23,780 nt of DNA from positions 1 to 23,780 of the IMG/VR virus record IMGVR_UViG_3300009151_000392; one strand, given 5' to 3'. The notes under the pieces are model-generated. The model did no database searches and had not been told where the DNA came from. It saw only the letters and a list, made by a program, of their open reading frames with translations. Below are positions 18,775-21,485 of this stretch, one piece after another; within the stretch, counting starts at the first letter, position 1, and each line of letters opens with the position of its first letter. Position numbers and translations under genes: made by a program. The stretch comes from a virus.

Positions 18775-19062
18775 ATGGAAAAAAGAATTGAGTCGACGGT
18801 TATTTCCCGTCATGGGAACATTATCAATATTTATGCAGTAGAAAACCCTCTTGTTAGAAAAGATCTGCTTACACCTTATAGCACTTATGAAGTAGTGTAT
18901 AGATTTGGGCAAAATAGTTCAGAGACTTTTGTCGCAGAATACATTGATTGCACCCCTGACATGAGAAGTTTGATCTTCACTCATCCAAGCAAAGGAGAGG
19001 GTAGGAGAATTATTGTACCAACAAACAATATTTCCAAATTACGTCATTTGTTTGATAAATAA
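18775..19062 (+). CDS. Small beta-rich protein of unknown function (95 aa)
   Basis: Start ATG after AATATAAAATAAAA. The strand-rich pattern (RIESTVISRHGNIINIYAVE, YSTYEVVYRFGQNSSETF, VAEYIDCTPDMRSLIFTHPS) ends in a basic helix ISKLRHLFDK. There is no membrane segment. The promoter at 19047-19077 overlaps its 3' end, so the RNA/initiator unit begins inside this gene. Confidence 0.72.
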   Translation: MEKRIESTVISRHGNIINIYAVENPLVRKDLLTPYSTYEVVYRFGQNSSETFVAEYIDCTPDMRSLIFTHPSKGEGRRIIVPTNNISKLRHLFDK

Positions 19063-19077
19063 TTTGAGTTATATTTG
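19047..19077 (+). promoter_or_regulatory. Near-perfect Bacteroidota promoter
   Basis: TTTG (19047-19050), 19 bases, then TATATTTG (19070-19077): exactly the TTTG-N19-TAnnTTTG form described for Bacteroidota primary sigma factors. Transcription would begin near 19083, at the foot of a long hairpin. This is the best promoter in the window. Confidence 0.8.
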
Positions 19078-19082
19078 TGAGT

Positions 19083-19180
19083 AGTATTTTGAATTGCATT
19101 GAGGGATGCGATTCAAAGTATAGGCTAAAATCCTATCGCCCAAGTTTCTTCCCTCAAGGACTTGGGCATTTTTATCTTTA
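19083..19180 (+). ncRNA. Candidate structured small RNA or attenuating leader with kissing loops
   Basis: Hairpin 1 pairs 19084-19099 with 19106-19121 (16 pairs, three G-U) and has the six-base loop UGAGGG (19100-19105). Hairpin 2 is AUAGG/CCUAU (19120-19136) with loop CUAAAAU; its outermost pairs compete with the base of hairpin 1. Hairpin 3 pairs GCCCAAGU (19138-19145) with ACUUGGGC (19160-19167), and its loop holds CCCUCA (19151-19156), the exact complement of loop 1. UUUUU follows at 19169-19173, so hairpin 3 is an intrinsic terminator. The strong promoter just upstream gives a transcript of about 90-100 bases. It could be a free regulatory RNA, or a leader controlling readthrough into the initiator/helicase operon whose first ATG is at 19181. 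I recognise no known RNA family. Confidence 0.7.
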
Positions 19181-19375
19181 ATGGATCTGGAATTAATGGC
19201 ATTCATGTCGGTGGTAAAAGTTAAGTTAGTTCATACTCAAATGAACCTGGCTGACTATCAAAAAGCATTATCGTTTGCCACACCCGAAATGAAAGCATTC
19301 GATAAGTTGTTAGAAATTGTAGAAGAATTAGTCAAAGAGATTAAATTTTACGAAAATAAATTAAAAGAAATATGA
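19181..19375 (+). CDS. Small helical protein of the replication operon (64 aa)
   Basis: Its ATG at 19181 lies a few bases after a terminator's U-run; later in-frame ATGs at 19196 and 19205 are alternative starts. The product is all-helical with a Lys/Glu C-terminal coiled coil (LLEIVEELVKEIKFYENKLK). It overlaps the initiator gene by four bases (ATGA), so the two are coupled. It may be a partner or regulator of the initiator; no family is recognised. Confidence 0.68.
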   Translation: MDLELMAFMSVVKVKLVHTQMNLADYQKALSFATPEMKAFDKLLEIVEELVKEIKFYENKLKEI

Positions 19376-20061
19376 GTTGGTTTGCGGTGATTTCTTCGGA
19401 GATATTGGTGCGAAAAGATTTGTCTGCTAATGAGAAATTATTGGTTGGATTAATACAAAGTTTATCGCATCAAAAAGGACATTGCTTTGCAAGTAATTCT
19501 TATATGGCTGAATGTATTGGAATATCAGCAAGTTCGGTTAGACAATACCTAAAATCTTTAGAGGATAAGGATATTATTTCCAGGGATTTAAAGAAAAAAG
19601 AGTCTGGAGAGGTTGAAATAAGGGAAATCAAGTTGACTACCCCTCTGCCTAATTCTCACCATACCCCTAGTGAGAACTCACTATACCCTCTGCCTAATTC
19701 TCACCCCCCCTCTGCCGAGAACTCACTACATAATAAGAGAGTTAATAATAAAGAGAATAAAAAAGAAGAAATAGTTAATAATCGATTTGAGGAATTTTGG
19801 GAATTGTATGGGAAGAAAGTAGGTAAGGAAAAAGCAAAGATTAATTGGATTAAGCTAAAAGAAAAAGAAAAAGATGATTGCTTATTGGCGATCCCGAAGT
19901 ACACCCAATCCAGGCCCGATATAATTTATCGTAAGGACCCGGAGCGTTATTTAAAAAATAGAGTTTGGGAAGATGAGATTGTAGGTTCCAATCTGAATGT
20001 TAAATTAGAACCAATTGATCAAAAACAATTTGAATTAATTATACCAGACAAATGGCTTTAA
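19372..20061 (+). CDS. Lambda-O-like replication initiator / helicase loader
   Basis: Residues 1-75 form a winged helix-turn-helix of the type in phage initiators (SANEKLLVGLIQSL, CFASNSYMAECIGISASSVR, YLKSLEDKDIIS). Residues ~88-121 are a low-complexity Pro/Ser/Asn/His linker with two 15-residue repeats, PLPNSHHTPSENSLY and PLPNSHPPSAENSLH. Residues ~138-203 form a C-terminal domain (FEEFWELYGKKVGKEKAKIN, RPDIIYRKDPERYLKNR) of the kind that pairs with the replicative helicase. It is coupled by overlap with the helicase gene, as O/P- or DnaC-like partners are. The linker DNA itself is the iteron array at 19633-19730. Expected role: bind iterons, melt the adjacent AT-rich DNA and load the phage helicase. 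Confidence 0.82.
   Translation: MSWFAVISSEILVRKDLSANEKLLVGLIQSLSHQKGHCFASNSYMAECIGISASSVRQYLKSLEDKDIISRDLKKKESGEVEIREIKLTTPLPNSHHTPSENSLYPLPNSHPPSAENSLHNKRVNNKENKKEEIVNNRFEEFWELYGKKVGKEKAKINWIKLKEKEKDDCLLAIPKYTQSRPDIIYRKDPERYLKNRVWEDEIVGSNLNVKLEPIDQKQFELIIPDKWL
19633..19730 (+). repeat. In-gene iterons, candidate replication origin
   Basis: Units of 22, 22, 23 and 22 bp start at 19633, 19655, 19677 and 19700, and a partial unit follows at 19722. They share CTCAC or GTGAG edges and (A/C)CCC(C)T cores. Units 2-3 contain TAGTGAGAACTCACTA (19668-19683), the reverse complement of the intergenic array's 12113-12128. A purine- and A/T-rich stretch follows (about 19728-19790). This mirrors the lambda origin inside gene O: iterons, then AT-rich DNA, within the initiator gene. 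Confidence 0.8.
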
Positions 20062-21485
20062 ATAAAAAAATAGTAATTGAAGATTTTTTCCTGGAGGAGG
20101 ATGTGATTGCATACTTGTTAGAGAATTCTCACATGGTACAAGATGCTTCTAAAATTGTAACTGACAATTGTTTCGTAGACTCTTTATTTAAGGCGTCATT
20201 TAACGCGATGGTTGAATTATCTATTGACAATAAGGTATTCAATCGTTACGATGTTTTTAGATTGCTTAAATCAAAGAATTTAGATTTAGGTGTAGATCCT
20301 TCAAACTTGTTAAGTTTATTACCTAAAGGAAAGGTAGAGCTAACCAAGGTTTGTGGGGAGCTTAAAGAATTAGAAGTTAAACGGATTGCTAATGACTTAT
20401 CAATATCTATTCAACAAAGTCTAGCTAATGGCGACGACATAACAAAACTTTCAAGCGTAATAGAACTAGGGTTGGCTGAAATTCAAAATGGTCCGCTGTC
20501 AACTGAAATATATTCCCTGGACAATGTTTATGAATCTGTCATGGATAAAATGGAAGCTACCGCTGGGGTGCTTAAATTTTCGGGCGTTGACACTGGTTCG
20601 CGTAAACTTAATTACGTCCTGGGAGGATGGCAACCAGGAGTAACAATCATTGCAGCTCGTCCTGGTATGGGTAAGACTATTGCAGGATTAGAGCATGCAA
20701 AGTCCGCGTCAAAGACGGGCGTTAAAGTATTATTTCTTTCGTTAGAGATGCCTAAAGAATCTTTGGTTTACCGATATATATCTAGTGAATTTGAGGATTA
20801 TAAGTATTCTGATTTAAAAGCAAATCGTATTAGTAAAGAAGATGTAACTAAGATTAGAAATTCTAATGCTAGGGTCCTTAAGCAATTACCTATTTCATTT
20901 TACGATTCTGATAATAGAGACGTTAACTATTTAAATTTGCTATTAATTAAGGAGTGTAGGAAGAATGGCATAAGACTAATTGTTATTGACTATCTGCAAT
21001 TAATACGCGACAATCAAATCAAAGATCAAAGTGACTTCGCCCAGGTATCATCCGTATCAAATAAAATTCAAAAGCTTACTCGTAAGTTGGGGATCCCAAT
21101 TATAGCATTATCTCAATTATCTAGGAGCGTTGAATCCAGGGCCAACAAACACCCAATGTTATCCGATTTAAGAAGCAGTGGTAATATTGAGCAAGATGCA
21201 ATTGTGGTTATTCTATTGTACAGAGACGACTATTACAAATATGTTGAAGCTAAAGAATCAAATCAGCCCGTAGCTCAAATGGATAATAAGTTATTGTATA
21301 TCGTTGCCAAGAATAGAGACGGAGAAGTTGGCGATGTTAACAGAATTGTTGACGTTAAAACAAATAGGATTGCCGATGAAGAATCAGAATTGTTTGGATT
21401 TAAGGAACCCCAGGTAGCATTTAAAGAGTCAGCAATTAATAAGATTCAACCTAATTTTGATGATATAACAATTAAACCATTTTAA
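20052..21485 (+). CDS. Replicative DNA helicase (DnaB family)
   Basis: The 477-residue protein has an N-terminal helical primase-interacting domain (~1-150) and a RecA-like ATPase domain. Walker A is ARPGMGKT at 202-209, the catalytic-glutamate segment SLEMP is at ~230-234, Walker B VIDYLQL is at 311-317, and the DnaB signatures SQLSRSVESR (354-363) and DLRSSGNIEQDA (372-383) follow, then YRDDYY. Family members are usually 440-480 residues. It unwinds phage DNA at the fork as a hexamer. Its start overlaps the initiator's stop by ten bases (AAATGGCTTTAA), so the two are made together. Confidence 0.93.
   Translation: MALNKKIVIEDFFLEEDVIAYLLENSHMVQDASKIVTDNCFVDSLFKASFNAMVELSIDNKVFNRYDVFRLLKSKNLDLGVDPSNLLSLLPKGKVELTKVCGELKELEVKRIANDLSISIQQSLANGDDITKLSSVIELGLAEIQNGPLSTEIYSLDNVYESVMDKMEATAGVLKFSGVDTGSRKLNYVLGGWQPGVTIIAARPGMGKTIAGLEHAKSASKTGVKVLFLSLEMPKESLVYRYISSEFEDYKYSDLKANRISKEDVTKIRNSNARVLKQLPISFYDSDNRDVNYLNLLLIKECRKNGIRLIVIDYLQLIRDNQIKDQSDFAQVSSVSNKIQKLTRKLGIPIIALSQLSRSVESRANKHPMLSDLRSSGNIEQDAIVVILLYRDDYYKYVEAKESNQPVAQMDNKLLYIVAKNRDGEVGDVNRIVDVKTNRIADEESELFGFKEPQVAFKESAINKIQPNFDDITIKPF

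Follow-up and report, generated by a model that had tools for sequence, protein, structure and literature searches.

A predicted kissing-loop RNA with its own terminator, conserved at the head of replication operons in uncultured phages

What does a short RNA do when it has a promoter and a terminator of its own and sits directly in front of the genes that start phage replication? The window analyzed here, the whole 23,780-base stretch of one virus record, raises this question near its position 19,100. The portal and large terminase proteins encoded in the window fall in phage families, and the terminase is ~25–34% identical to those of Flavobacterium Elemovirus, Cellulophaga Callevirus and Baltivirus, and Tenacibaculum Gundelvirus; the terminases of crAss-like phages are more distant. 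The leader RNA is intergenic and on the sense strand: the preceding gene ends at 19062, the next open reading frame (ORF) begins at 19181, and the genes upstream run in the same direction as the replication operon. A Bacteroidota-type promoter spans 19047–19077 (plus strand, as are all features below), with TTTG at 19047–19050, a 19-nt spacer, and TATATTTG at 19070–19077. A pattern search found no other perfect TTTG-N19-TAnnTTTG match in the window, and this type of promoter is a known Bacteroidota consensus (PMC7366714). An earlier note on this DNA had read TTTG-N19-TATATTTG as a promoter ahead of several hairpins, which the perfect match at this site bears out. Transcription is predicted to start near 19082–19085. 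Among relatives, the TAnnTTTG box lies upstream of the element in 81 of 104 distinct cases.

The operon that follows is well defined. Its first entry in the ORF list (19181–19375), beginning 13 nt past the terminator stem, encodes a 64-aa protein that matched no PHROG and no Pfam family. An O-like replication initiator follows at 19372–20061 (PHROG 270, E = 4e-27; Pfam HTH_36, E = 1.4e-11), and then a DnaB-like replicative helicase at 20052–21485 (PHROG 19, E = 4e-64; Pfam DnaB_C). Every feature first proposed from the letters lies at the position given for it there. A repeat search also found two 43-nt direct repeats, 84% identical, within the initiator gene (19641–19728), which are candidate origin iterons; the initiator genes of relatives L023 and L015 hold similar repeats.

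The RNA itself is built from three hairpins. Hairpin 1 (19084–19121) has a 16-bp stem, formed by 19084–19099 with 19106–19121, and a UGAGGG loop at 19100–19105, across which the ViennaRNA fold adds a U·G pair. The terminator hairpin (19138–19167) carries CCCUCA in its loop at 19151–19156, the exact complement of the hairpin 1 loop, and is followed by a T-tract at 19169–19175 (Ts at 19169–19173). Both hairpins, which had been described earlier from the sequence with these same loops, are reproduced by the letters and the fold and are supported by covariation, which for the terminator involves both stem and loop. Relatives also carry a T-rich tract, and the RNA is predicted to end there, giving a transcript of ~90 nt. 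The terminator of the window is missing from the output of a simple terminator scan; its stem is bulged. The small middle hairpin, hairpin 2 (AUAGG...CCUAU, 19120–19136), fared less evenly: it recurs in all three groups of relatives described below, and a pattern search for it returned eight stretches, two of them new, but in the window two of its bases also belong to the foot of hairpin 1, which ViennaRNA extends in preference to forming hairpin 2. Because of this overlap, hairpin 2 is weakly supported in the window itself. Overall, the leader folds at -36.9 kcal/mol compared with -21.1 kcal/mol for shuffled sequences (z = -4.9), and none of 200 shuffles was equally stable. The apical loop of hairpin 1 is almost certain, on comparative grounds, to pair with the apical loop of the terminator over 6–8 bases, a kissing fold that would span the whole transcript. 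The predicted energies of the kissing duplexes range from -5.6 to -10.7 kcal/mol.

To place this structure among related phages, DnaB relatives were taken from IMG/VR and the regions upstream of dnaB were read. Of the 34 long phage records, 28 have the same architecture, with one copy each at the model threshold, and in the loci that were read it heads the initiator/DnaB operon. It was also recovered in ~80 contigs by a pattern that described the terminator alone and kept the loop center open. Approximately twelve different complementary loop pairs occur, in three groups that share almost no primary sequence. In group A, which comprises the window and its relatives on contigs of ~62–66 kb that look complete, the pair is GAGGG/CCCTC, with GGGGG/CCCCC in L076. 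Group B, also of ~62–66 kb, has GTTGCG/CGCAAC, GTTGAG/CTCAAC, and GTCGCG/CGCGAC. Group C (contigs of ~27–34 kb) has GTGAGAG/CTCTCAC as well as GTAGGAG, GTGGTAG, GTGGAAG, and GTCAGAG, each with its exact complement; the pattern search of IMG/VR added GTCGTAG/CTACGAC and GTCGGAG/CTCCGAC. In 102 of 104 distinct elements, the first ATG lies 8–20 nt past the terminator stem. The operons of relatives open with initiators of several N-terminal types, namely Lin1244_N, a divergent relative of Lin1244_N, HTH_36, and others, the Pfam check covering the three named types. A small ORF or an HNH gene sometimes precedes the initiator, as with the HNH endonuclease-like genes between the element and the initiator gene in L237, L294, L307, L070, and L072. 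After the initiator comes either DnaB or a 199-aa protein of unknown family, which occupies the second operon position in L242, L241, and their relatives and matched neither a Pfam family nor anything in the phage collection.

Several relatives depart from this arrangement. Some lack the element (L007–L013, L032, and L079), and it is therefore inessential to the operon. In L079, the operon's first ORF directly follows a promoter. In L012 (4032–4080) and L013 (4043–4085), a promoter and a covarying hairpin precede the same operon but no terminator is present; this arrangement may represent a reduced version of the element. At L071:412–510, a hairpin and a terminator follow a TAGATTTG box and have loops CTACAAC/GTTGTAG, in which purines and pyrimidines have traded places; the middle hairpin is missing, and this structure may be a chance occurrence or another class. 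Downstream of dnaB, a group C-type kissing element also lies between an exonuclease gene and a NUMOD4-HNH gene, which it heads (L023:4942–5056 and L021:3458–3560), and the main element of L023, upstream of its initiator, belongs to group B, unlike this second copy. One contig of 59,277 bases (IMGVR_UViG_3300027969_000114) contains two elements, L242 and L311. Two ~29.6-kb contigs from another sample (L244 and L263) together have nearly this length; the contig is either two phages joined during assembly or a genuine double genome.

How secure is the pairing between the two loops? A lone 6-nt match between two loops, spotted by eye, would carry little weight. A strict scanner that allowed no bulges missed most elements, and the first list of relatives was filtered on loop complementarity and so cannot prove that complementarity. 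Three covariance models (R1, R2, and R3) were built from the nested stems only and are blind to kissing. Their strong matches upstream of dnaB keep the loop complementarity, including L059, L063, L068, L070, L072, and L078, which the filter had missed; in L004 it is reduced. The models also detect elements across groups at the right place (R3 in L044, 5e-7; R2 in L027, 5e-5; R1 in the window, 0.005). None of the three found an unrelated site in 695 kb, and R1 gave no significant match in 806 kb of control sequence. A loose GAGGG...CCCTC pattern run on viral contigs returned matches that, among those listed, were mostly unrelated and were used solely as control sequence.

The group C terminator pattern, with the loop center set to NNN, was run over all of IMG/VR, and the distinct matches were counted with 62 bases of upstream sequence. 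In 45 of the 47, an upstream hairpin presents an exactly complementary loop of 7–8 nt. One exception, L291, is cut by the contig end; the other, L282, is an unrelated chance match, and both were left out of the covariation set of 35 distinct group C elements. Every one of the 245 kissing-helix cells in this set is paired; 16 of them carry changes in both partners, and neither one-sided changes nor mismatches occur. The terminator loop is partly fixed by the pattern, which limits the independent evidence to three free positions; two of these three vary, always with compensation. Shifting the partners by one to three columns lowers the pairing of the whole group C structure from 99% to 33–55%. 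The group B kissing helix is 100% paired with two covarying pairs, and in group A the variation between L076 and the other members replaces both loops together. The stems covary as well: 10 of 14 hairpin 1 pairs in group A, 8 of 14 in group B, and 9 of 12 in group C, with 16 covarying stem pairs in group A as a whole and a covarying terminator stem in all three groups.

Compensatory changes in both loops across related phages had been named at the outset as the decisive test, and they are present in groups B and C. The opposite outcome, hairpins kept and complementarity lost, was encountered in weakened form only: the L004 element (787–881) has a natural 8-nt deletion in the terminator loop that leaves five complementary bases (UUGAG/CUCAA). 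In 84,980 cellular genomes, the group C terminator pattern produced 13 matches, none with a hairpin 1. Covariation in dozens of phages refutes chance or a reading artefact as the origin of the loop match. The element is real and strongly conserved, with a secure structure from which we infer a function below.

This architecture has no counterpart in the catalogues searched. The window gave no Rfam match above the gathering threshold (best E = 3.4 in a relaxed search), and the loci of 12 relatives gave tRNAs only. Nine related named phage genomes, among them Elemovirus, Callevirus, Gundelvirus, Baltivirus, MW202828, and one crAss-like phage, lack the element; of the weak matches there, W03 and W04 are tRNAs, and W07 is an ordinary terminator. 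A search of 396 Bacteroidota genomes with R1 only and strict filters gave three borderline matches, about the number expected by chance and none convincing, such as L406, which combines a 6-nt loop match with a poor hairpin 1. Searches of open-access papers, a weak guide to absence, turned up no description of this architecture. The element is a new, uncatalogued structured-RNA family.

We propose, with a probability of about 0.5 and from sequence evidence, that the element acts as an attenuator, a leader RNA that controls how often polymerases pass its own terminator into the replication operon. After leaving the promoter, the RNA would fold into hairpin 1, hairpin 2, and the intrinsic terminator, where most transcripts would end. 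The initiator and the helicase, or its substitute, would be made solely by polymerases that read through. Kissing would become possible only after the terminator loop exits the polymerase, and it would set the frequency of termination. In the simplest case, it would fix the terminator in position; conceivably, it could instead hold the strand of the terminator loop and delay closure of the stem. The outcome would be a metered dose of initiator and a metered onset of replication. The spacing in front of the operon supports this proposal: the downstream ORF starts 8–20 nt past the terminator stem, so that no internal promoter fits and operon transcripts must cross the terminator. No second promoter was found between the terminator and the ORF. 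Modulated termination is favored over a free small RNA because of this anatomy. A classical antiterminator was rejected, since the longest pairing with the 5' arm of the terminator (4.5–4.7 nt) equals that of shuffled sequences. Antisense-RNA control was rejected as well, a promoter-like site on the opposite strand being present in 1 of 104 elements. Kissing class and initiator type assort largely freely, and recognition of the leader by the initiator protein through the loops is unlikely because the class does not track the type.

The same terminator could also be a plain strong stop, with the RNA as the product and the operon fed by weak leakage. A free, terminated RNA of ~90 nt acting in trans, in dose sensing, P4-like immunity, or binding of a host RNA, is possible but doubtful. 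Loop 1 of one molecule would pair with the nascent terminator loop transcribed from other genome copies or from co-infecting relatives. The CI RNA of P4 is a precedent, as it pairs with its own leader and thereby halts transcription of the replication genes of P4 (PMC4825925). The compact unit with its own promoter and terminator fits such a product, and so do the ~12 kissing specificities, of which near-identical phages carry different alleles. Among the ~30-kb contigs, whose DnaB proteins are very similar, the alleles barely track the DnaB tree (8 changes for GTGAGAG compared with 9.6 when shuffled), and L077 and L074, which share 95% identity overall across one stretch, differ within it over the whole element. 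This pattern is consistent with exchange of the element as a cassette, whether through selection for different specificities or through recombination alone; the shuffling of alleles may be no different from ordinary mosaicism. The loops that kiss are less variable than the stem of hairpin 1 (2 of 7 pairs against 9 of 12 in group C), an argument against strong diversifying selection. There is likewise no excess of loop targets in phage genomes, the loop sequence occurring elsewhere at about chance level in seven long records and, in G027, solely within the element. A further reading, which we hold to be unlikely, treats the kissing pair as a self-recognition code: the terminated RNA would recognize the nascent leaders of kin in trans and shut off initiator synthesis, and each loop pair would define an immunity or copy-control group, passed among related phages as a cassette.

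An unregulated terminator or stabilizer, providing either a nuclease-resistant RNA end or an efficient stop against upstream transcription at constant read-through, is similarly improbable. The upstream genes are indeed co-directional, the stems are stable, and a T-tract is present, but an insulator would not need a promoter immediately upstream. Ordinary terminators, moreover, have no known upstream hairpin conserved as a partner through covarying loops. Very unlikely is a role as a replication primer or in transcriptional activation of a nearby origin, perhaps within the initiator gene. In lambda, the origin lies inside gene O, and the 43-nt repeats in the window's initiator gene, ~470 nt downstream, offer a parallel; the RNA stops that distance short of them, however, and the element precedes initiators of several N-terminal types and, in one copy, an HNH gene.

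The element is an RNA family widespread in uncultured phages with Bacteroidota-type promoters, and it joins a group for which little has been learned about phage RNA biology. It is also a clear example of a conserved kissing pair with a terminator loop as one partner, located at the switch point of phage genome replication. With ~12 natural sequence-swapped versions, the tuning of termination by loop-loop pairing is directly testable; L004 is a natural test case for a weakened kiss, and the set of loop pairs could supply orthogonal RNA regulators.

Among known systems, purine and lysine riboswitches have intramolecular kissing loops, often together with an intrinsic terminator. Their kissing lies inside the aptamer, whereas here the terminator's own loop takes part in the contact, and the groups have almost no primary sequence in common. 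The put RNAs of HK022 are structured antitermination RNAs at the start of early phage operons, where they affect termination. They resemble the element as structured RNAs that open a phage operon and differ in that they are not known to have a terminator of their own or kissing loops. The OOP RNA of lambda is, as here, a short terminated RNA adjoining an O-like initiator gene, but it is transcribed against its neighbor. The RNA described here is a sense RNA in the operon's own leader, between 19062 and 19181, with a covarying kissing pair. The earlier note was right that it is not antisense to the initiator, and its comparison with OOP and plasmid copy-control RNAs is an analogy only.

In P4 immunity, the CI RNA, through seqA and seqC, couples pairing in the leader to premature termination of the replication operon (PMC4825925). 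Pairing between RNA segments in the leader of replication genes is common to both systems, here in the form of kissing covariation. In P4, a lysogenic satellite, a processed RNA pairs with sites upstream and downstream of itself, whereas here the apical loops of hairpin 1 and the terminator pair. The 396 Bacteroidota genomes (R1, strict filters) yielded no convincing copy, so this search gave no sign of a prophage state. We class the element apart from P4-type RNA immunity, with trans action as a possible, hypothetical addition. The attenuators of plasmids pT181 and pIP501 control transcription of a replication initiator through antisense RNA (PMC5703833). As in those systems, an untranslated leader ends in a terminator directly before the operon, in which the initiator comes first or after small ORFs; leader RNA pairing sets the initiator dose there. 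In the plasmids, a counter-transcribed antisense RNA provides the partner; in the element, the two loops belong to one transcript, no conserved antisense promoter is present, and no antiterminator was found. Because antisense RNA and an antiterminator were looked for and not found, the element is not classed as pT181/pIP501-type. By analogy, the pT181/pIP501 attenuators and P4 RNA immunity are its nearest working analogues.
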